Shown here piece after piece: positions 21,855 through 30,831 of a stretch of DNA of 33,496 nt. The notes beneath the pieces were generated by a model. It ran no database searches. It was not told the origin of the DNA and saw only the letters and a list, made by a program, of their open reading frames with translations. Source of the stretch: Opitutaceae bacterium (GTDB taxonomy: Bacteria > Verrucomicrobiota > Verrucomicrobiia > Opitutales > Opitutaceae); contig CANJNJ010000048.1 in assembly GCA_947474995.1 (NCBI GenBank), positions 1 through 33,496 on the forward strand. The letters are read 5' to 3'. Position numbers and translations under genes: made by a program. Within the stretch, counting starts at the first letter, position 1; the number at the start of each line of letters is the position of its first letter.

Positions 21855-22327
21855 ATAAAACCCACATCCCCTCACTCCCCTGGGAGGAGGCCAAATCGCC
21901 GACGGGCAAGTTTCACTCGTACTGCCGCAATATTTCCCTCGCGCTGGGCGGCAGCCGCAACGCCGGGACGTGGGCGGGCGGCCATCCGTTTGATCTGCAG
22001 ATTCGCCACGTTCCCCCGGGGGCGGCCATCTGTCCGTTTCACTCCCATCTCGCGCAGTGGGAAATGTTCGTCGTCCAAAGCGGCGCCGGGACGGTGCGGG
22101 CTGGCGCGGCCTCCTACCCCGTCGCGACGGGCGAGGTCTTCGTTCATCCGCCCGGCGAACCGCACCAGCTTATCAACACCGGCACGGTTGATCTCGAAGT
22201 CCTGATTATCGCGGACAACCCGCCGCTCGACGCTTTCCACTATCCCGACTCGGACCAATGGGGGATCCGCGCGCCGCGAAAATTCTTTCGCATGGGCGAG
22301 ATCGATTACTGGGACGGCGAGGAGTGA
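21851..22327 (+). CDS. Cupin-domain protein
   Basis: 158 residues with one cupin_2 barrel at about 50-115: motif 1 reads CPFHSHLAQWEMFVVQSGAGTV (His, His, Glu metal ligands) and motif 2 VFVHPPGEPHQLINTG (His ligand). Small single-cupin proteins bind a divalent metal and act as dioxygenases, isomerases or sugar binders; nothing here fixes the substrate. The N-terminus (MNKTHIPSLPWEE) has no signal, so it is cytoplasmic. The ATG overlaps the RAYT2 stop by 4 bp, and the 3' end overlaps the convergent MbnP-MbnH gene by 22 bp. It may have belonged to an operon with the upstream FAH-family gene before the RAYT2/REP unit entered. Confidence 0.88.
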   Translation: MNKTHIPSLPWEEAKSPTGKFHSYCRNISLALGGSRNAGTWAGGHPFDLQIRHVPPGAAICPFHSHLAQWEMFVVQSGAGTVRAGAASYPVATGEVFVHPPGEPHQLINTGTVDLEVLIIADNPPLDAFHYPDSDQWGIRAPRKFFRMGEIDYWDGEE

Positions 22328-24051
22328 GCCGGTGCCGCCGCGAAGTTCGCGTCTGTCAGGGTCCGCAGGAACGCCACCAGCGCGGCTTGGTCCGCGGCGC
22401 TGAGTTCCAGGCCCTTCCTCGGGTGCTTGGCCAGGTTGGGATCGGTCGTCGCACTGAGTTGCACGCCATGATCATAGTGGGCGACGGTTTCCTCCAGCGT
22501 GGCGAAACGCCCGTCGTGCATGTACGGCCCGGTCACCGCCACGTTGCGCAGCGAGGGCGTCTTGAATTTTCCCGCGTCGTCGGGGCTCGCCGTGACCTTT
22601 TCCCGTCCGGGTTCGTCGCTCGCCAGGCGAAGACCGTTGTTCTTGTAGGCAAAGTCGCTGAAGAGCGGTCCCCCGTGGCAATGAAAGCAATCGGCGCCGC
22701 GGCGGTTCCGCGCCGGATCGTACTCGGTCAGAAAGAGCTCGAAGCCACGCTGCTCCTCCGGCGATAGCGGGGCCGCGCCGGAGAGGGCGCGATCGAACTT
22801 CGAGTCACGGGAGACCTGCACGAGCAGAAATTGCTCGAGCGCCAGGCTGAGACGCTCCGCGGTTATCTCCGGCGTGCCGAACACCGTCGCGAATTCCCGA
22901 CCGAGCAGGGCGTCGCGGGCGAGTTCCGCCACCACTTGCTCCGGCTCGGCGTGCATCTCGATGGGGTTGCGCATCGCGGCGAGGCTCTGGTCGCGAATGC
23001 GCGGCTGGCTGCCATCCCAAGCGTACGCCGGATGCCACGCGAGATTCACCAAGGGCTGGGCATTGCGCCTCCCGGGTTTTCCGTCCGCGCCGAGGCTCAC
23101 GGCCACCCCGTCGCTGAAGGCCCGCTCGGGCGCGTGGCAACTCGCACAGCTTTGCGAGCCGTTGCCCGACAGCCGCCGATCGCGGAAAAGTTTTTCCCCC
23201 AGGGCGACACCCTCGATGGTCAGCGGATTGTCCGCCGGCAGATCGGGCTGGGGCCAGCCCGTGGGCACGACGAAGGCGCGCGGCGTGGACGTGCTCTGCG
23301 GAATTTTTTCGTCGCTCCGGATAGCGGCCACCGGCTCCGGGCTCGGTTTCGACTCGAGCCAGTACCACGCGTGCTCGGCGGCCGTCCCCAGGCGGGCCGC
23401 AAGTTCGTCGCCGGAGCTGGAGTGCGTGGTTTCGCTGCCGTCATCGGCCGCGAGGTGCTGGGAACCGAGAAGGCGCGAAAGATCGAGTGCGAGTGCGATG
23501 GTGGTCGCCCGCTCGACGCGATAGTTGGCCAGAAAGCGCGCCGTCATTACGCGTTCGTCGGTCGCCAGGTGATAGGAAAAGCCGCGCTCGTCGCCGGCCG
23601 CGCCACTCCACCGGCCCTCCAGCGCGAGAAAGACGTAGCCCCCGGACCAGTTCCAGTGGAGACCATTGACGAGCGGGTTCAACGGATGACCCGCCGGCCA
23701 CGCGTCCGGCGAGGCGTGATTCACCGTCGGCGGCAGTCCCAGACGAAACTCCATCGCCGTGTAGTCGCCGTCGGGCACGTCGCGCAAGGAAACGTCGAGT
23801 CGCCCCGCGGCGGCATCGATGAACCCGTACTGCCCGTCGAGCCGCACCACAGATCCATCGACCCGGGTCAGCACGACCCCGGCCACCAGGGCCGCGAGCC
23901 GCGTGACGCGGAGCGACTGGCCGCTCTGATTCTCCAGCGGGGCCGAGGGTACCCGCAGCGCTGCGCCCTGCCAGACCGGCGCGATGGCCAGGGTGAGGTC
24001 AGCCGCCGCCAGTCGGACGGCAAAACAAAGCAGGATGACGACAAAACGCAC
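22306..24051 (-). CDS. MbnP-MbnH-like fusion: copper-binding domain joined to di-haem cytochrome c peroxidase domain
   Basis: About 581 residues. The GTG at 24051 gives a clean signal peptide (MRFVVILLCFAVRLAAA, cut before DLT); the GTG at 24096 lies inside the proposed promoter and is disfavoured. Residues about 20-235 resemble MbnP: YTAMEFRLGLP, NHASPDAWPAGHPLN and HWNWSGGYVFLALEG, with two Trp residues in the WNW block where MbnP carries the Trp converted to kynurenine. Residues about 275-560 are a MauG/CCP-type di-haem domain with CASCH and CFHCH haem motifs, GVALGEKLFRDRRLSGNG, NLAWHPAYAWDG, TPSLRNVAVTGPYMHDGR and a C-terminal ALVAFLRTLTD. In described systems MbnP and MbnH are separate proteins, MbnH oxidising a Trp of MbnP. 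Here enzyme and substrate domains share one chain. Expected location: periplasm. It overlaps the convergent cupin gene by 22 bp. Confidence 0.88.
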   Translation of the reverse strand: MRFVVILLCFAVRLAAADLTLAIAPVWQGAALRVPSAPLENQSGQSLRVTRLAALVAGVVLTRVDGSVVRLDGQYGFIDAAAGRLDVSLRDVPDGDYTAMEFRLGLPPTVNHASPDAWPAGHPLNPLVNGLHWNWSGGYVFLALEGRWSGAAGDERGFSYHLATDERVMTARFLANYRVERATTIALALDLSRLLGSQHLAADDGSETTHSSSGDELAARLGTAAEHAWYWLESKPSPEPVAAIRSDEKIPQSTSTPRAFVVPTGWPQPDLPADNPLTIEGVALGEKLFRDRRLSGNGSQSCASCHAPERAFSDGVAVSLGADGKPGRRNAQPLVNLAWHPAYAWDGSQPRIRDQSLAAMRNPIEMHAEPEQVVAELARDALLGREFATVFGTPEITAERLSLALEQFLLVQVSRDSKFDRALSGAAPLSPEEQRGFELFLTEYDPARNRRGADCFHCHGGPLFSDFAYKNNGLRLASDEPGREKVTASPDDAGKFKTPSLRNVAVTGPYMHDGRFATLEETVAHYDHGVQLSATTDPNLAKHPRKGLELSAADQAALVAFLRTLTDANFAAAPAHSSPSQ

Positions 24052-24071
24052 GGGGGCAGGATGGCCGGAGG

Positions 24072-24121
24072 GTGTTAGCGCGATGTGAGCGGTCACCGGA
24101 AAATTGTTAAGAGTCCGTTAA
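24072..24121 (-). promoter_or_regulatory. Shared promoter-like element, copy 1 (mbnPH-like gene; divergent regulator gene)
   Basis: Minus strand: TTAAC, 6 bp, TTAAC, then AATTTTCC and, 19 bp after the second half-site, ACATCG followed by CTAACAC. It aligns with three other upstream regions in the block. On the plus strand it reads GTTAA-N6-GTTAA, ending 51 bp before the response-regulator start. The half-site repeat resembles E. coli CpxR boxes (GTAAA-N5-GTAAA) with one extra base. Confidence 0.65.
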
Positions 24122-24172
24122 GCCAAGCGCGGGATTGCGCCGGACGCGGCGAATCCCCACATCTGTCGGCCA

Positions 24173-24910
24173 ATGAACGCCGACGCTCCCGCCTCCGGCC
24201 GCACGCAGCTGCTGATGATCGACGACGACAAGAAGCTTTGCCGTCTCGTCATGACGTATCTCGAGCCACTCGGCTTCGATGTGACCGCCGCCCACACGGG
24301 CCCGGACGGAGTCGAGCGCGCCACGGCGGCCGAAGCGGCGTGGCACGCGATCATCCTCGATGTCATGCTACCGGGCATGGACGGCTTCGAGGTGCTGAAG
24401 AAAATCCGGGCCAAGAGTCACGTGCCCGTGCTCATGCTCACGGCCCGGGGCGAAGAGACGGATCGAATCGTCGGGCTGGAGGTCGGCGCCGATGATTACC
24501 TGCCGAAGACTTTTTCCACGCGCGAGCTCCTGGCCCGGCTGCGCGCCGTGCTCCGCCGCAGCGCCGCCTCCGCCAGCGCCGGGCCGGCCGCCGGGGCGCC
24601 GCCGGTCGAGATTGTGGTCGGCGACCTGCGCGTGAACCTCGACGCCCGCGCCGCGGTCCTGGGCGCCACCCCTCTCGTGCTGACCCCGGTGGAATTCGAT
24701 TTGCTCGCCAGCCTCGCGAAAGCCAAGGGCCGGGTGAAAACCCGCGAGTCGCTGCTCGATGAGATCCGCGACCGCAACTACGACGTGTTCGATCGCTCGA
24801 TCGACGTGCATATTTCTTCGCTGCGCAAAAAGCTGGGGGACGACGCGAAAGAGCCGCGCTTTATTCGCACGGTCCGCTCGGCCGGTTACATGATTGCCGT
24901 GCCGAGCTGA
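24173..24910 (+). CDS. OmpR/CpxR-type response regulator
   Basis: 245 residues. The receiver domain (about 11-125) has the acidic pair in LLMIDDDKKL, phosphoacceptor Asp63 in IILDVMLPGMDG, the Thr in MLTARGEE and Lys112 in DDYLPKTFS. The usual Pro after this Lys is Thr. The winged-helix domain (about 145-243) has LTPVEFDLLASLAKAKGRV and FDRSIDVHISSLRKKLGDD, closest in memory to CpxR. It should bind tandem GTAAA-like half-sites, and such a site lies 51 bp upstream, suggesting self-regulation. Its likely partner kinase is 2.5 kb downstream on the same strand, separated by the oppositely oriented YHYH gene. ATG start. Confidence 0.95.
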   Translation: MNADAPASGRTQLLMIDDDKKLCRLVMTYLEPLGFDVTAAHTGPDGVERATAAEAAWHAIILDVMLPGMDGFEVLKKIRAKSHVPVLMLTARGEETDRIVGLEVGADDYLPKTFSTRELLARLRAVLRRSAASASAGPAAGAPPVEIVVGDLRVNLDARAAVLGATPLVLTPVEFDLLASLAKAKGRVKTRESLLDEIRDRNYDVFDRSIDVHISSLRKKLGDDAKEPRFIRTVRSAGYMIAVPS

Positions 24911-24942
24911 CGCGGGGTCGGCGGTCACGTCTTTCCGCCCGC

Positions 24943-27276
24943 TCAGGGAATAACGTAGAGTTCCACCAGCACGTTGCCGCTGGTGTTGCCGACGCCGCTC
25001 ACGATCGCCGTGTATTGTCCGGCCGGAAGCGTCGCCAGCAGCGCGGCATCCTTGCTGCCGGACGCAAAGGCAAACGCGCCCGCGTTGGTCGCCACCTCGG
25101 CGATCTCGGCGGCGTTGGCGGCGGCACTCCAATTGTCATTGGACCCAACGACCGTCGCGCCCGCGTAGAGGGTAATCTGCGGATCGGCGAGCGCCCCGTT
25201 TTCGCCGAATTGCCCGAGCGCGGGACCCGCGGCCCGGAGCAAGAGCTTCACGCTGCCGGCGCCGCTGACGACAAAGCCCGGAATGAGCACGCTGTCACCC
25301 GTCCCGACAAAGGCGCGCGTCGAGGCGTTGACGAGAGCCGCGCCGCCGGCGGACTCAGGTGAGTACACCTCGAGCAGCGTCACGCCACTGCCACCGCCGG
25401 CGCCGATGACCGCCGAATACGCGCCGGCCGGGAGGAGGGCCGAGAGCGCCGCGTCCTTGCTCCCCGCTTCGAGGGCAAACGCACCGGCCGCGGCAAACGT
25501 CGCGCCGACCGCCATGGTCCAGTCGTCGTTGCCCGCGACGGTCGCGCCACCCGACACGAGCGAGAGGCTCGGATTGGCGAGCACGCCCTGCACCTGAAAC
25601 GCGTTGAGCCCGGGACCGACGGCCCGCAGGAGAATTTCTTTCGCGCCCTCGCCCGCGAGCACGAAGCCGGCGGTCGGCGTGCCGGCGCTGCCACCGACCT
25701 GGACCCGGGTGGCGAGATTGACGAGCCGCGCCGTGCCGTTCGTCCCGACCGGGGTGGTGGCGGTCGCCGCGTTGCCCACTCCGGTAAGTCCGCCTGCGCC
25801 GCGGGTATCGTAGACCGCCAGCGCGGTGAGGGTCACGCGGTAGTGGGTCGCGACTGTCGAGGTCGAATAGGTCGTCGTGTCACCACCACGGCTGAGCACG
25901 GCCGCGGCCAGCGTGGTCCAGACGGACGCATCGGGGGAGGATTCGACGCGGTAGGTCGCACCTTCGACGGATGACCACACGACGGCCACGGTGCCGCCCG
26001 CGTTGGTGGCGCTCACGCGGAGCGGCGAGGCCTGGCTCGCGCGGACAAACTCCGTGACCGATTCACTGATGGCGTTGACGCTGCCACCGGTCGGGTTGCC
26101 GTAGAACCAACGGCCGATGATGAAAGGAAACTTCGGCGTGCCATCGCTCTCGATGGTCAGGAAGTAGGCATAGGTCCCGTTCGGAAACTCGGGCGTCACG
26201 CAAAAGCGCACGTTGCATTCATTCAAATCGAAGTCGGCGCCCTGCACCTTGCCGAGGTCGCCGAGGTAATCGTAGTCCTCGATGAAGTGTCCAAGAATAT
26301 AGTCGGCGTTGACCGCCGGGCCGTAGACGTTCGCCGCCAGCGTCGTGGAGCGGTTCTGCGCGCGGGCGGCCCAGGCGGGCAGCGTGGTGCGGCCGGTCGC
26401 CGCGAGATTGGTGGTGCCATTGGTGCCGTCGCGCTTCCCGTAGCCGGGAACCATCCGGCGCACCCCGCTCGCGGCGTTCAGCGGCGAGGAGTAGCCATAG
26501 GGACCGTACACCGGAAACCCGTCGGCCATCCAACCGAGAATGGGCGAGTGCGCCGCGGCGGGCGCGGCATTCTCGGTATAGTTCCTGGTCGTGGCGTTGA
26601 AGTCCACGTGGTCACCGAGTTGAAAACGGAGCGCCGGCGTATTGGCGTGATAGTGGTAGTTGGAGCCGGCCTGATGGGCGAAGGCCGCATCGAACGTCAT
26701 GCCTTCGTTGACGTAGGCGTCGCGATTCCACACGCCGTCGCCGCGCGCCCCATTGCCCGGATCCGCGTCGGCCCCGCGGGCGTTCGAATAGGAAAACGTG
26801 TCGCGGTTATCGAACACCGAGACTCCATCCACAAAATAGCCAATTGGGCCGCCGGGGGTCAGGGTCCGCGTAGTCGCGACCACCGGCGCGCGCGGAATCC
26901 GGTAAAGCACGCCGGTGTTGGCGGGAAAGTTGGGAAAATTCTGCGTATGCGCGGCGTTGAGGTACCACGGGCCCATCACGTGGTAGCCCAGTCCCGACGA
27001 ACGGAGGTAAACCCAGTTCGCCGACGAAGACACCTGGATGACCCCCGCGTAGCTCGGGGTGGACTGCACGCCCTGTCCGCGGCTCCACGTCGTGACGGCC
27101 GTCCCGACGCTCTTCGCGGCGTCCGTTTCATAGAGACGGGCGTAGCGGCGGGAACTTCCGGTCTGCCAGGATTCAAGCTGCGGATCGGCGGCGCGCGCGA
27201 GGGTCAAGGTCAAGGCCAGGCCGATGCAGGCCAGGCCGAGGGTGCGGATGTGCGATCGGCAAAAACAGATTTTCAT
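24943..27276 (-). CDS. Secreted YHYH-domain protein with tandem C-terminal repeats
   Basis: 777 residues. The ATG at 27276 opens a signal peptide (basic MKICFCRSHIR, then LGLACIGLALTLTLARA). Residues about 60-400 match the YHYH domain: NYHYH at about 204-208, followed by ALRFQLGDH and ILGWMADGFPVYGPYGY, with many His/Tyr/Asp residues that could bind metal. A short fibronectin-like stretch (about 415-505) leads to two copies of a roughly 130-residue module (about 513-640 and 645-777) with the pattern VN.(S/A)TR, LLRA.GP.L..F, NDNW, GSKDAAL and LPAG.Y.A.(V/I). The same module ends the protein at 30905. The function of YHYH proteins is not established; metal handling is inferred from context. 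The gene sits between the regulator and kinase genes in the opposite direction and has its own copy of the shared promoter element. Confidence 0.88.
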   Translation of the reverse strand: MKICFCRSHIRTLGLACIGLALTLTLARAADPQLESWQTGSSRRYARLYETDAAKSVGTAVTTWSRGQGVQSTPSYAGVIQVSSSANWVYLRSSGLGYHVMGPWYLNAAHTQNFPNFPANTGVLYRIPRAPVVATTRTLTPGGPIGYFVDGVSVFDNRDTFSYSNARGADADPGNGARGDGVWNRDAYVNEGMTFDAAFAHQAGSNYHYHANTPALRFQLGDHVDFNATTRNYTENAAPAAAHSPILGWMADGFPVYGPYGYSSPLNAASGVRRMVPGYGKRDGTNGTTNLAATGRTTLPAWAARAQNRSTTLAANVYGPAVNADYILGHFIEDYDYLGDLGKVQGADFDLNECNVRFCVTPEFPNGTYAYFLTIESDGTPKFPFIIGRWFYGNPTGGSVNAISESVTEFVRASQASPLRVSATNAGGTVAVVWSSVEGATYRVESSPDASVWTTLAAAVLSRGGDTTTYSTSTVATHYRVTLTALAVYDTRGAGGLTGVGNAATATTPVGTNGTARLVNLATRVQVGGSAGTPTAGFVLAGEGAKEILLRAVGPGLNAFQVQGVLANPSLSLVSGGATVAGNDDWTMAVGATFAAAGAFALEAGSKDAALSALLPAGAYSAVIGAGGGSGVTLLEVYSPESAGGAALVNASTRAFVGTGDSVLIPGFVVSGAGSVKLLLRAAGPALGQFGENGALADPQITLYAGATVVGSNDNWSAAANAAEIAEVATNAGAFAFASGSKDAALLATLPAGQYTAIVSGVGNTSGNVLVELYVIP

Positions 27277-27315
27277 GGGAGGGTTAGGTTCCATGCCCCA
27301 TTTGGCCACCAGCCG

Positions 27316-27363
27316 GTTAAGCGCGTGTGTGCCACATCAGGATTTTTGTTAAGTCGGAGTAAA
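27316..27363 (-). promoter_or_regulatory. Shared promoter-like element, copy 2 (YHYH gene; divergent kinase gene)
   Basis: Minus strand: TTTAC, 6 bp, TTAAC, then AAAAATCC and, 19 bp after the second half-site, ACACGCGCTTAAC. On the plus strand it is GTTAA-N6-GTAAA ending 53 bp before the kinase ATG. Position and spacing match copy 1. Confidence 0.65.
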
Positions 27364-27416
27364 CGTTGCAGATTTTTCCCGTGACTGGTGTAGCTTGCCG
27401 GGCGTCCTGCTCCTCA

Positions 27417-29087
27417 ATGAAAGTCTCCTACCCACTTTCGCTCAAGGTTTCGGTGTGGCTGCTGCTCAATTTGCTGCTGCTGGCCGGGCTGGGCATGGGG
27501 TTTTTTGTGGTCCAGGGCGGCTTGGGCTGGGATGCGCTCATGGCTGGACCCAGTGGGGAACGGGCGCAGGCCACGGCCAACCTGATCGCCAGTGAAACCG
27601 CCACCGCGACGGCCGAAACCCGGGAGGCGGTGCTGGCCCGGCTGAGCACCGCGTACCAAGCCGAATTTTTTATTTTTCGCCCGGGCGACGTGAAGGTGGC
27701 CGGCCCGAGCGTCGACCTGCCACCGGAAGTTCACAGTCGGCTGGAATTTGGGCTGCCCGGCCGGGGATTCAGGGAATTTGCCGGGCGCGGCGAATTCGGA
27801 CCGGGGCGCGGAAATTTCAAAGGCCCACGGGGCGAAGCACGCCGGCCCGAAGCGGAAGAAGCCACTGGCGCGCCGCGCCGCAGTTTCAACGATTCCGTTC
27901 GCCCGGATAATTTTGATCCGACCCGACCCGACCCAACCGCCGGGGCCGAGCCTGACAAAGGCCCGCCGCGCCACGACCCCGGCGAAAAAACAGGCCGCGA
28001 GCCGCCTGAATTTGGCCGCAGCCGGGGACCGTTTGATCCTAACCGCGAAATCGAGCGTGGCCGTTTCATCGTCCGGGCCGGTACGCCGTCGGCCTTTTGG
28101 GTCGGCCTCCGGGTGCCCTTTGCCGCCGTCGAACGAAATCGCTTTCCCGGCCCCTCGATGCTCGTCGCACGGGTGGACTCCCTCTGGTCCCTGCTCCGTT
28201 TCCTTGACCTCCATGTCTGGCTGCTCGTCGGCACCTGTGTACTGGCTCTCTCCGTCCTCTTTTGGCTGCCCTTGATGAGCGGGATCACTCACGCGGTGGG
28301 TCAACTGACGACCGCCACCGAGCAGATCGCGGACGGGCGGTTCGACACCCGCGTTCCGACCAAGCGCCGCGATGAACTCGGCAAACTCGGGGAATCCGTC
28401 AACCGGATGGCCATCCGCCTCGACACCCACATGACCGGGCAAAAGCGTTTCCTGGGCGACGTCGCCCACGAACTGTGTTCTCCGCTGGCGCGCCTGCAAA
28501 TGGCGACCGGCATTTTGGCGGAACGTGCGCCGGCTGATTTGCATGCCACTGTCGCCGACGTACGCGAGGAGGTTCAGCAGATGAGCACCCTCGTCAACGA
28601 GCTGCTCGAATTCACCAAGGCAGGCCTGCAGCGGCGGGAAGTGGCTCTGCGGAAGCTCGAACTCGCACCGCTCGTCCAGGAAGTGATGGTGCGCGAGGAC
28701 TCCCAGAATCGCGCCACCGTCACGATTCCCGCGGATCTCAGCATTCTCGCCGAACCGGAGCTGCTTTCCCGCGCTCTCGGCAATCTCATCCGCAACGCGG
28801 TTCGCTACGCGGGCGCCGCCGGTCCCATTCAGGTGACGGCTCGCCGTGAGGCCAATCGCGTGATCCTCGCGGTCGAGGACGAGGGACCGGGCGTGCCGGC
28901 GGACGCCGTGGATCGCCTCGGTGAACCTTTTTTCCGGCCCGAAGCGGCCCGGACCCGCGAGCTCGGAGGCGTCGGCCTTGGCCTCGCCATCGTGCGCAGC
29001 AGCATGCTGGCCTGTGGGGGCGAGGTTCGCTTTGCCAACCGCACCCCGCGCGGCTTTCGCGCCGAGTTGCTGGTCAGCGCGGCGTGA
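27417..29087 (+). CDS. CpxA-type sensor histidine kinase with low-complexity periplasmic region
   Basis: 556 residues from the ATG at 27417, which begins MKVSYPLSLKV just before the first membrane span (about 9-34); codons upstream add nothing recognisable. The periplasmic part (about 35-260) contains a Gly/Pro/Arg/Asp-rich stretch (about 115-225; GFREFAGRGEFGPGRG, PDPTAGAEPDKGPPRHDPG) that looks disordered. A second span (about 262-288, WLLVGTCVLALSVLFWLPL) leads to a HAMP domain, a HisKA domain with phospho-acceptor His351 in DVAHELCSPLARLQ, and an HATPase with N box LGNLIRNAVRYA, G1 VEDEGPGVP and G2 GGVGLGLAIV. It is the probable partner of the CpxR-like regulator at 24173. Confidence 0.95.
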   Translation: MKVSYPLSLKVSVWLLLNLLLLAGLGMGFFVVQGGLGWDALMAGPSGERAQATANLIASETATATAETREAVLARLSTAYQAEFFIFRPGDVKVAGPSVDLPPEVHSRLEFGLPGRGFREFAGRGEFGPGRGNFKGPRGEARRPEAEEATGAPRRSFNDSVRPDNFDPTRPDPTAGAEPDKGPPRHDPGEKTGREPPEFGRSRGPFDPNREIERGRFIVRAGTPSAFWVGLRVPFAAVERNRFPGPSMLVARVDSLWSLLRFLDLHVWLLVGTCVLALSVLFWLPLMSGITHAVGQLTTATEQIADGRFDTRVPTKRRDELGKLGESVNRMAIRLDTHMTGQKRFLGDVAHELCSPLARLQMATGILAERAPADLHATVADVREEVQQMSTLVNELLEFTKAGLQRREVALRKLELAPLVQEVMVREDSQNRATVTIPADLSILAEPELLSRALGNLIRNAVRYAGAAGPIQVTARREANRVILAVEDEGPGVPADAVDRLGEPFFRPEAARTRELGGVGLGLAIVRSSMLACGGEVRFANRTPRGFRAELLVSAA

Positions 29088-29100
29088 TGGCGGGTCCGGA

Positions 29101-29180
29101 GTTGGTAGTCCCGCCTTCAGGCGGAAGGGTTGCCGCGGCGGCCAGGGCGTCGGATTCCGCCTAAAGGCGGAACTACCAAC
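29101..29180. repeat. REPIN-like pair of hairpins
   Basis: GTTGGTAG (29101-29108) and its exact inverse CTACCAAC (29173-29180) frame two hairpins: CCGCC-TTCA-GGCGG (29111-29124) and TCCGCC-TAAA-GGCGGA (29156-29171). GTAG stands next to each stem in inverted order, as in REPINs. It lies 13 bp after the kinase stop; no RAYT is adjacent. Confidence 0.8.
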
Positions 29181-29230
29181 GAAGTCAGCCCGCCGGATCC
29201 GAGGGTCCAGCGTTACGCCTGACCCCCGCC

Positions 29231-29280
29231 TTTACACGAGCTTAACAATTCTCCCTCGCGGCGACACGAACGGCTAACAC
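29231..29280 (+). promoter_or_regulatory. Shared promoter-like element, copy 3 (ECF sigma gene)
   Basis: TTTAC, 6 bp, TTAAC, then AATTCTCCC and, 17 bp after the second half-site, ACACGAACGGCTAACAC. It is most similar to copy 4; the first 25 bases differ at five positions. The sigma gene starts 74 bp after the end of the element. Confidence 0.65.
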
Positions 29281-29354
29281 GCGGACCCCTAAATTCGGGT
29301 AAATGCGGGAGGGACATCGCTCCCCGTCCCCCCGACAAATCCCTTCTCCGTCCC

Positions 29355-30059
29355 ATGATCCTGCCAAACCCCGACCATTTTTCCACGGCCGCTTCGTCCC
29401 CAAGAATTGCCGCCGGCCAGTCCGCCCAGGAACGCCCGACAACGAGCGCCGGCCTGACCTCGACGGAACGCGCGGCGCTCGCCGATCTCGTGATTCGCGC
29501 CCGCACGGGTGAAGCCGCGGCGCAATCCGAGCTGGTGCGCAAATACACCCGCCGCATTTCCGGCCACGTCCGCATCATTATCCACCAACCCGACGCTGTG
29601 GAAGACGTGGTTCAAACCGTGTTCATCAAGATGTTTCGCCGCCTCAACCGGCTGCGCGATCCGGGTTCGTTCGAATCCTGGCTGTTCCGTCTGTCCCGGA
29701 ACACCGCCCTCGATTTCATCCGGCGCCGCCGCTGCCGTCCGATCACGGTGCCCGTCGAGAATGAGCTGTTTGAAATTCCCGATCCCGCGAACGCCGGCGC
29801 CACGAACGAGATCATCGACGCCCTCGAGGCCGCCCTCGCCCACGTCAGCCCCAAGGACCGCGACCTCCTGAACCTTTTCATTGCCGGCAACAGCTATCGC
29901 ACCCTCGCGGACCGCGAGGGCCTCACGATGGGAGCGGTCAAGGCCCGGCTCCATCGCATCCGGCCGTTCCTCCGGTCGTTTGTGGGTGGCGTCACCGAAA
30001 CGCGTTTGCCCGGGGCCGCCCACTGGCGCGAGACAGGCAGTTCCCACCTCGCCGCCTGA
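29355..30059 (+). CDS. ECF-type RNA polymerase sigma factor
   Basis: 234 residues. Region 2 lies at about 45-110 (ELVRKYTRRISGHVRIII, DAVEDVVQTVFIKMFRRLNRLRD, SWLFRLSRNTALDFIRRRR) and region 4 at about 150-210 (ALAHVSPKDRDLLNLFIAGNSYRTLADREGLTMGAVKARLHRIRPFLR), with the short linker of ECF factors. The 40-residue N-terminal extension is Ala/Ser/Pro-rich. No gene resembling an anti-sigma factor is next to it; the following gene encodes a secreted EF-hand protein. The upstream region shares a long block with that of the EF-hand gene, so the factor may recognise this promoter and its own. Confidence 0.94.
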   Translation: MILPNPDHFSTAASSPRIAAGQSAQERPTTSAGLTSTERAALADLVIRARTGEAAAQSELVRKYTRRISGHVRIIIHQPDAVEDVVQTVFIKMFRRLNRLRDPGSFESWLFRLSRNTALDFIRRRRCRPITVPVENELFEIPDPANAGATNEIIDALEAALAHVSPKDRDLLNLFIAGNSYRTLADREGLTMGAVKARLHRIRPFLRSFVGGVTETRLPGAAHWRETGSSHLAA

Positions 30060-30071
30060 TGCCGCCAGTCG

Positions 30072-30090
30072 CGCCGGTCTCTGACCGGCG
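30072..30090. repeat. REP-like hairpin after the sigma gene
   Basis: CGCCGGTC-TCT-GACCGGCG, an 8-bp stem with a 3-nt loop, 12 bp past the sigma stop. The same hairpin with one compensated base pair is at 32680-32698. It may double as a terminator. Confidence 0.75.
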
Positions 30091-30156
30091 TCGGGGCGAC
30101 CACGCACCCGGGGACCGCCCCGCGCCTGTCGCTCACGTATCAGAGTTTTTCGCACC

Positions 30157-30206
30157 TTTACACGGGTCTAACAATTTTCCCGTCCGCGTACATCGAAGCG
30201 AAACAC
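30157..30206 (+). promoter_or_regulatory. Shared promoter-like element, copy 4 (EF-hand gene)
   Basis: TTTAC, 6 bp, CTAAC, then AATTTTCCC and, 17 bp after the second half-site, ACATCGAAGCGAAACAC. It ends 91 bp before the chosen EF-hand start (19 bp before an alternative upstream ATG at 30226). Confidence 0.65.
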
Positions 30207-30297
30207 GGAAGGCGTCTAATCAGGCATGTTCACTTCACCGTCCGATTATATCGCCACCCCGTCGGGCGGCGACGGTCGCCGGAGTGAACGACTCTCC

Positions 30298-30831
30298 ATG
30301 AATATCGTTTCTCGTCTCTTCGTCCTCGGCGCACACCTGCTGCTCACGGTTGCCCTTTCCGCCCAGCCCACCGGCCATTCCACTCGCGGTCCGGGTGGTC
30401 ACGGTCGCGGCAACCCCATCATTCGCGTGCTCGACAACGATCAGGATGGCGTGATTTCCGCTGAGGAAATCGCCAACGCTCCGTCGAACCTCAAGTCGCT
30501 GGACGTAAACGGCGACAGCAAGATCACCGTCGACGACTGCAAGTTGCTGCCGCGGCCCGCAGGCGCCCCGATGCCTCCAGCCGATCGTCCGGCGCCACCC
30601 GCGGACACCGATCATCCGCGCCCGCTCAATCCGATCATGCTGGCGCTGGACGCGAACCAGGATGGCGAACTGTCGGCCGCCGAGATCGCCAACGCCACGA
30701 CTAGCCTCAAGGCGCTGGATCTGAACAAGGACGGCAAGCTCACGCCCGATGAGTACCGTCCGCTGCCGCCGGAAGGCGCTCCGGCCGAAGGTGCCGGTCG
30801 TCATTTCGGACGGCCTCCGTCCGGTGGTTAA
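30298..30831 (+). CDS. Secreted protein with four EF-hand loops
   Basis: 177 residues from the ATG at 30298, which opens a signal peptide (MNIVSRLFVLGAHLLLTVALSA); an ATG at 30226 would add 24 residues that spoil it. Four 12-residue EF-hand loops are visible: DNDQDGVISAEE (46-57), DVNGDSKITVDD (69-80), DANQDGELSAAE (118-129) and DLNKDGKLTPDE (141-152). The second ends in Asp, not Glu. The protein is an internal duplication: EIANAPSNLKSLD and EIANATTSLKALD link the loops in each half, separated by a Pro-rich spacer (about 85-110). The mature N-terminus is Gly/His/Arg-rich. It should bind calcium or a similar cation outside the cytoplasm. It has copy 4 of the shared promoter element and follows the ECF sigma gene. 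Confidence 0.9.
   Translation: MNIVSRLFVLGAHLLLTVALSAQPTGHSTRGPGGHGRGNPIIRVLDNDQDGVISAEEIANAPSNLKSLDVNGDSKITVDDCKLLPRPAGAPMPPADRPAPPADTDHPRPLNPIMLALDANQDGELSAAEIANATTSLKALDLNKDGKLTPDEYRPLPPEGAPAEGAGRHFGRPPSGG

Follow-up and report, generated by a model that had tools for sequence, protein, structure and literature searches.

OmpR-family response regulators bind direct repeats with an 11-bp period. Among the systems described so far, the CpxR site of Pseudomonas aeruginosa has been given as GTAAA-(N)4-8-GTAAA (PMC5063474), and the BqsR operator of the same species is a direct repeat of a pentamer, TTAAG-N6-TTAAG, that serves activation, with one promoter carrying four pentamers, the last of which overlaps the -35 region (PMC4682146). 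MbnP and MbnH, for their part, are encoded by a gene pair found in methanobactin producers and in other bacteria (PMC3621798). In the work presented here, we analyzed a stretch of 33,496 nucleotides from an Opitutaceae bacterium of the Verrucomicrobiota (assembly GCA_947474995.1, contig CANJNJ010000048.1, positions 1 to 33,496; hereafter, the window), in which a reading of the sequence alone (the original prediction) had picked out one promoter-like element of about 50 bp repeated in front of four genes of a regulatory block. By computation, we established that this element is built of two boxes followed by a -10, that it is conserved upstream of orthologous genes, and that it co-occurs with the response regulator encoded in the block. 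It adds a computationally well-supported case to a known class of system, namely, an OmpR-family operator and regulon, and it is very probably the operator-promoter of the block's own two-component system, arranged as a class II activator site.

All four copies were recovered, at the predicted places and on the predicted strands, as exact matches to the 24-mer pattern TTWAC-N6-YTAAC-AAWWHTCC (box 1). They point toward the genes for an MbnP-MbnH fusion, a YHYH protein, an extracytoplasmic function (ECF) sigma factor and an EF-hand protein, and their half-sites lie 11 bp apart, i.e., one helical turn. The copies, each with its second box (box 2) and -10-like hexamer, and the genes concerned are as follows.

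24098..24121, (-), copy 1 box 1, TTAACGGACTCTTAACAATTTTCC, faces the MbnP-MbnH gene, exact 24-mer match
24074..24089, (-), copy 1 box 2, CTCACATCGCGCTAAC, offset 32, from the second-box scan
24058-24063, (-), copy 1 weak -10-like CATCCT, 10 bp past box 2, position from the 49-site logo
27340..27363, (-), copy 2 box 1, TTTACTCCGACTTAACAAAAATCC, faces the YHYH gene, exact 24-mer match
27316..27331, (-), copy 2 box 2, CACACACGCGCTTAAC, offset 32, from the second-box scan
27300-27305, (-), copy 2 weak -10-like CCAAAT, position from the 49-site logo
29231..29254, (+), copy 3 box 1, TTTACACGAGCTTAACAATTCTCC, faces the ECF sigma factor gene, exact 24-mer match
29263..29278, (+), copy 3 box 2, GACACGAACGGCTAAC, offset 32, from the second-box scan
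29289-29294, (+), copy 3 -10-like CTAAAT, position from the 49-site logo
30157..30180, (+), copy 4 box 1, TTTACACGGGTCTAACAATTTTCC, faces the EF-hand gene, exact 24-mer match
30189..30204, (+), copy 4 box 2, degenerate, TACATCGAAGCGAAAC, offset 32, 6/9 letters
30215-30220, (+), copy 4 -10-like TCTAAT, position from the 49-site logo
24173..24910, (+), OmpR-family response regulator (Pfam Response_reg and Trans_reg_C above cut-off, the receiver and winged-helix C-terminal domains), proposed binder of the element
27417..29087, (+), sensor histidine kinase (Pfam HAMP, HisKA and HATPase_c), proposed partner of the regulator
22306..24051, (-), MbnP-MbnH fusion, an MbnP domain and then a di-haem MauG/CCP domain (Pfam/NCBIfam), proposed target
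24943..27276, (-), YHYH protein (Pfam PF14240), proposed target
29355..30059, (+), ECF sigma factor (Pfam; NCBIfam TIGR02937 above cut-off), proposed target
30298..30831, (+), exported EF-hand protein (Pfam EF-hand), proposed target

Copies 1 and 2 also adjoin divergent genes, and box 1 lies at the predicted distances of 51 bp from the regulator ATG (24173) and 53 bp from the kinase ATG (27417). No fifth copy of the 24-mer was found in the window at up to 3 mismatches (dinucleotide-shuffle mean, 0.04). We then scanned the source genome (5.24 Mb in 261 contigs, 96% complete), with the pattern written backwards as the control. The exact 24-mer occurs there at 4 places, every one in the block, and its near-copies number 1 at 1 mismatch and 13 at 3 mismatches, compared with 12 in total at up to 3 mismatches for the control; of the 6 occurrences of the 16-mer core TTWAC-N6-YTAAC, 4 fall in the block (control, 13 occurrences). 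The 1-mismatch copy, on contig C55 (locus L011; 17358-17381, minus strand), has both boxes, with box 2 at offset 33 and 8/9 letters, and lies upstream of a gene for a di-haem oxidoreductase (Pfam DHOR). Because this copy lies outside the block, the expectation that the sites would be confined to the block's gene set holds for the four exact copies but not strictly. Across 150 genomes of the family, the exact 24-mer has 24 matches (backwards control, 0), rising to 81 with up to 1 mismatch (control, 9). The four-copy element is real; occurrence at random frequency, which the original prediction had named as an outcome that would speak against it, is not what is seen: the element stands far above chance.

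The element is also larger than first described. An ACAY block and a (C)TAAC or GAAAC had been noted beyond the 24-mer, and both are present in all four copies, as the two halves of box 2 at offset 32. Box 2 was searched for independently of box 1, in 81 sites of the 150 genomes chosen by box 1 alone (≤1 mismatch). At a threshold of at least 8/9 letters, the pattern TNCAC-N6-YTWAC lies at offset 32 in 24 of the 81 sites and at offset 33 in 9, while any other offset from 20 to 89 accounts for at most 2; at 7/9 letters, box 2 is present in 56/81. Copies 1 to 3 of the window match at 8/9 letters and copy 4 at 6/9 (TACAT-N6-GAAAC). A logo was drawn from 49 of the 56 two-box sites, near-copies having been removed; its letters within the two patterns are in part predetermined by the site selection (box 1 at ≤1 mismatch, box 2 at ≥7/9), which is not true of the -10. 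It reads TTTAC-NCNNNC-YTAAC-AAWWHTCC for box 1 and YWCAY-ANNNNC-YTWAC for box 2, the latter starting 32 or 33 bp on from the start of box 1. After a 10-bp spacer past box 2 comes a sigma70-like -10, TWTnnT, whose final T is present in 45 of the 49 sites. Half-sites fall at positions 1, 12, 33/34 and 44/45 from the element start, an 11-bp register, and no -35 hexamer is visible in the logo 17 bp before the -10, a place occupied by box 2. Tandem direct-repeat half-sites about 11 bp apart, beside a -10, are the layout of an OmpR/PhoB-type operator, and we take the geometry of two boxes plus -10 to be that of an OmpR-family class II activator site.

The distribution of the element follows that of the response regulator. 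At a cut-off of E ≤ 1e-75, regulator orthologues are present in 38 of the 150 family genomes. The element (≤1 mismatch) occurs in 34 of these 38 and in 11 of the 112 others (Fisher p 9e-20), and two-box sites occur in 32/38 and 5/112, respectively (p 2e-21); the genomes are related, and these p values are a guide only. Among the five regulator-negative genomes with two-box sites, G091 and G146 in fact have a regulator gene that is truncated at a contig end. A search of genome contigs retained 80 relatives of the regulator, mainly from Verrucomicrobiota, with some from Acidobacteria, Desulfobacteraceae, Melainabacteria and others. Among the four nearest, three are Opitutaceae loci (L046, L047 and L048), whose regulators are 84-86% identical to that of the window. 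In 77 of the 80 loci, more than 150 bp precede the regulator open reading frame (ORF); the other 3, with a short upstream region, have no site there. Of the 77 loci, 35 have a site with ≤2 mismatches next to the regulator, and 35/35 point away from it; the density is 35 matches in 39 kb beside the regulator versus 11 in the other 953 kb of the loci. With ≤3 mismatches, 49/77 loci have a site beside the regulator, and only 1 of 53 matches is oriented the opposite way; box 1 (≤5 mismatches) together with box 2 gives 49 matches in the 80 loci versus 7 in letter-shuffled copies. Conservation upstream of orthologues in many relatives, as anticipated, is borne out in both the 150 genomes and the 80 loci. 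The divergent promoter of the regulator itself contains the element in many Verrucomicrobiota, as well as in some Acidobacteriota and Desulfobacteraceae. A kinase homologue lies directly 3′ of the regulator in many related loci, and its extracytoplasmic loop is variable in an alignment of the window with 21 loci (L088 and L116 were excluded from the sensor profile).

Downstream genes were labelled by phmmer with the window proteins (E ≤ 1e-4) and by an EF-hand pattern, among ORFs starting within ~300 bp, so that some of those counted as "other" are possibly miscalled; the Pfam search covered 28 downstream proteins from other loci. The 56 two-box sites precede YHYH (18), EF-hand (9), MbnP-MbnH (8) and ECF (4) genes, 39 in total, and the 25 remaining sites precede these families in only 4 cases (EF-hand 3, MbnP-MbnH 1) and others in 21. 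Outside the four families, the genes behind two-box sites include those for a TonB_C protein (L211) and for the L011 di-haem oxidoreductase. The di-haem oxidoreductase family also stands behind a site in a second genome (G129, L227), with a weaker box 2 (6/9), and a GSDH-like protein behind a site in L214 that is likewise below threshold (6/9). Farther afield, the site has an LTXXQ/CpxP-Spy-like gene as its divergent gene in L080 and L092 and a haem peroxidase gene in L096; in L088 it comes after the kinase gene, ahead of a YHYH gene.

Several observations on these downstream regions stand apart. In one genus (g2; L026, L027 and L213), short ORFs that share a membrane-helix-like N terminus, e.g., MTHLSNKTLLAAVTCAWLLTAAVLV, lie behind two-box or near two-box sites and apparently form an unannotated family of small targets. 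A recurrent short ORF with the common stretch NAFNWLLVLGFP, or one like it, lies behind two-box sites in L200, L221 and L223. Finally, in L041 and L042 an exact box 1 without box 2 stands before lamin-tail-domain proteins, and the two loci are similar downstream (TGCATCC, followed by TCGGTCGGAAG), perhaps a separate repeat or promoter type.

A number of findings weigh against assigning the element to the block's two-component system. Copies 1 and 2 have a weak -10. Six of the 38 regulator-positive genomes have no two-box site among their ≤1-mismatch sites, and four regulator-positive genomes (G020, G044, G064 and G088) have no ≤1-mismatch site at all, whereas three others (G022, G043 and G109) have two-box sites and no regulator at E ≤ 1e-40. 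Beside the regulator, 42 of the 77 loci lack a ≤2-mismatch site and 28 lack a ≤3-mismatch site. In the 30 regulator loci drawn from the family genomes, a ≤3-mismatch site was found in 21 and was missing, within the available stretch, from 9; only 12 of the 30 have a two-box site, and therefore 9 regulator-adjoining sites have no box 2, which is not universal beside the regulator. Moreover, the gene behind 17 of the 56 two-box sites belongs to none of the four families.

One alternative is that a different transcription factor binds the boxes and that the two-component genes are merely among its targets. Binding by the block's regulator is, after all, our deduction, and the three regulator-negative genomes named above fit such a factor; we nonetheless consider it unlikely, given that the element co-occurs with the regulator and, in many loci, lies within the regulator's divergent promoter. 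The C-terminal helix of the regulator is, in addition, close to that of CpxR, and direct repeats with an 11-bp period are typical of OmpR-family regulators. BqsR is a published case (PMC4682146). The original prediction had itself suggested that the AAC-rich part of the element could be the -35 of promoters read by the block's ECF factor, which would make this an autoregulated ECF regulon. The ECF gene is indeed preceded by a copy, and in the 16 of 150 genomes with an ECF homologue (E ≤ 1e-52) the element is present in 12, versus 33 of the other 134 (p 1e-4). However, genomes with the regulator and no ECF homologue have the element in 25 of 29 cases, while those with an ECF homologue and no regulator at the cut-off have it in 3 of 7, and 2 of these 3 carry a contig-cut regulator; with both genes the count is 9/9 and with neither 8/105. 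The element (≤3 mismatches) lies upstream of only 5 of the 16 ECF homologues, all in one genus, and of 0 of 9 weaker homologues, and L080, L088, L092 and L107 (Acidobacteriota and Desulfobacteraceae) have it beside or near the regulator with no ECF homologue detected in the available stretch. The conserved downstream hexamer, at fixed spacing, is moreover sigma70-like (TWTnnT). As co-occurrence follows the regulator and the -10 after box 2 is of the sigma70 type, we rejected the ECF promoter, which we regard as highly improbable. The ECF gene is a target in some genomes and its product probably not the binder; L047, which is outside the 150-genome sample, also has a site before an ECF gene.

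That a mobile or duplicated repeat, similar to a miniature inverted-repeat transposable element (MITE) or a repetitive extragenic palindrome (REP), spread the promoter without any common regulator is suggested by the clustering of several copies in one genome. The copies differ in spacers and flanks but agree in half-sites, spacing and -10, homologous genes of several genera are preceded by the same architecture, and there are 4 exact copies genome-wide versus 212 places for this genome's REP-like palindrome. With conserved half-sites, variable spacers and so low a copy number, such a repeat was rejected and is barely conceivable.

Taking the element as the operator-promoter of the two-component system, we envisage the following course of events. 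The kinase, with its variable extracytoplasmic loop, would phosphorylate the regulator (24173-24910), which would then bind as two tandem dimers to the direct repeats of boxes 1 and 2. Box 2 would substitute for the -35 region, with the sigma70-type -10 lying 10 bp downstream, and the bound regulator would recruit the housekeeping sigma70 polymerase to the -10, with activation, rather than repression, as the presumed direction of control. The MbnP-MbnH, YHYH, ECF and EF-hand genes would be switched on, together with the di-haem oxidoreductase gene elsewhere in the genome, and the exported EF-hand, YHYH and haem proteins would be the output. Copies 1 and 2, next to the divergent regulator and kinase genes, would presumably provide feedback on both. 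As for the signal, we can only guess at envelope stress with a metal or redox component, on account of the target families and of the CpxP-like neighbours in two distant loci.

The proposed -10 positions, if right, also bear on three start codons, for which they favor sites other than the longer ORF starts. The MbnP-MbnH gene likely starts at the GTG at 24051, since the GTG at 24096 falls inside the element. The YHYH gene likely starts at the ATG at 27276, downstream of the -10, where the N terminus is signal peptide-like, and the EF-hand gene likely starts at the ATG at 30298 rather than at 30226, which sits 5 bp past the -10. In the EF-hand protein (30298-30831), adjacent loops begin 23 residues apart, i.e., with a short linker that to our eyes recalls lanmodulin; against the LanM model, the protein scored 31 bits (cut-off, 135) and is not LanM by that test. 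The gap between the kinase and ECF genes (29111-29172) holds the REP-like palindrome TTCCGCCTAAAGGCGGAA at 29155-29172 and a variant at 29111-29124. The 212 places mentioned above are those of TTCCGCCTNNAGGCGGAA in the source genome (backwards control, 0).

On a larger scale, it is possible, although we propose this tentatively and hold it to be somewhat less probable than its opposite, that the block represents a widespread and undescribed envelope-response regulon of Verrucomicrobiota and neighbouring phyla. Such a regulon would combine a CpxAR-like system, a two-box promoter without a -35, and exported metal- or haem-dependent proteins (EF-hand, YHYH, MbnP-MbnH and di-haem oxidoreductase) in place of the proteobacterial CpxP/Spy chaperones, with the ECF factor captured as a second tier in at least one genus. 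As the original prediction had it, no regulon of this membership is described in the literature listings searched. To our knowledge, the signalling of this phylum is little charted, and the block offers a testable regulon with a defined operator for Verrucomicrobiota. It also ties three families of unclear role (YHYH, MbnP-MbnH and the short-linker EF-hand proteins) to one regulator, which provides a handle on their function.

The comparison with CpxAR, which the original prediction had drawn from the half-sites, is instructive in both directions. As in the CpxR site, the first half-site is typically TTTAC (GTAAA on the other strand), in a direct repeat, and as at cpxP-cpxRA, the regulator gene is divergent from an exported-protein target toward which the box points; in Escherichia coli, the box TTTAC-N5-TTTAC likewise points to its target, cpxP, which is divergent from cpxRA (L155). 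Box 1 even reads TTTAC-N6-TTTAC in the distant orthologues L077, L078, L088 and L092, and the divergent target in L080 and L092 is, as in the CpxR system, an LTXXQ (CpxP/Spy-type) protein. The C-terminal helices compared, which we take to be the recognition helices, are FDRSIDVHISSLRKKL in the block's regulator and FDRAIDMHISNLRRKL in CpxR. Unlike the CpxR site, however, the second half-site is usually YTAAC, the spacing is N6, a second tandem box follows 32/33 bp on, and the targets are EF-hand, YHYH, MbnP-MbnH and ECF genes; in the window, the GTAAA box fits the first half-site of 3 of 4 copies, the second being YTAAC. No divergent cpxP-like LTXXQ gene is present in the window, where MbnP-MbnH takes that place, and among 20 downstream proteins of other loci scanned, LTXXQ was found only in L080 and L092. 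The likeness in half-site and layout stands. As to membership in CpxAR, the regulator scored 188 bits against the CpxR equivalog (cut-off, 341) and higher against the OmpR model (204; cut-off, 331), and the kinase scored 160 bits against the CpxA equivalog (cut-off, 486), which is still the best of its matches. A sensor profile compared with 11 E. coli kinases gave 1.3 bits for CpxA and 3.4 for RstB, none significant. The regulator is 41% identical to E. coli OmpR and 42% to CpxR, and in a tree that combines the window and 25 of the 80 loci with 12 regulators of E. coli, 24 of the 26 locus rows, including the window's, fall into one group (93/87). Outside it, E. coli CpxR pairs with L123 (96/90), at a fork that the tree leaves unresolved between them, OmpR, L124 and the CusR/BasR/QseB group, and with a long-branch warning. 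Neither the family models nor the sensor profile nor the tree established membership in CpxAR.

For PmrA, the regulator scored 142 bits against the equivalog model (cut-off, 330), the TTAAG half-site does not occur among the box 1 half-sites of the window, and no paper on a PmrA class II promoter was found in the literature searched. Fusion of the MbnP and MbnH domains is seen not only in the window (22306-24051) but also in the relatives L046 and L201; here, unlike the gene pair of the published account, they make up a single protein behind a two-component-type operator. BqsR, which we compared by site only, differs from the block's regulator in that 8/8 box 1 half-sites of the window end in C, unlike TTAAG, and in its target genes. 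In architecture the two are alike: the BqsR operator has the same N6-spaced pentamer repeat, and one of its promoters has four pentamers, the last overlapping the -35 region. By analogy, the promoter described here probably works as those of CpxR and BqsR do.

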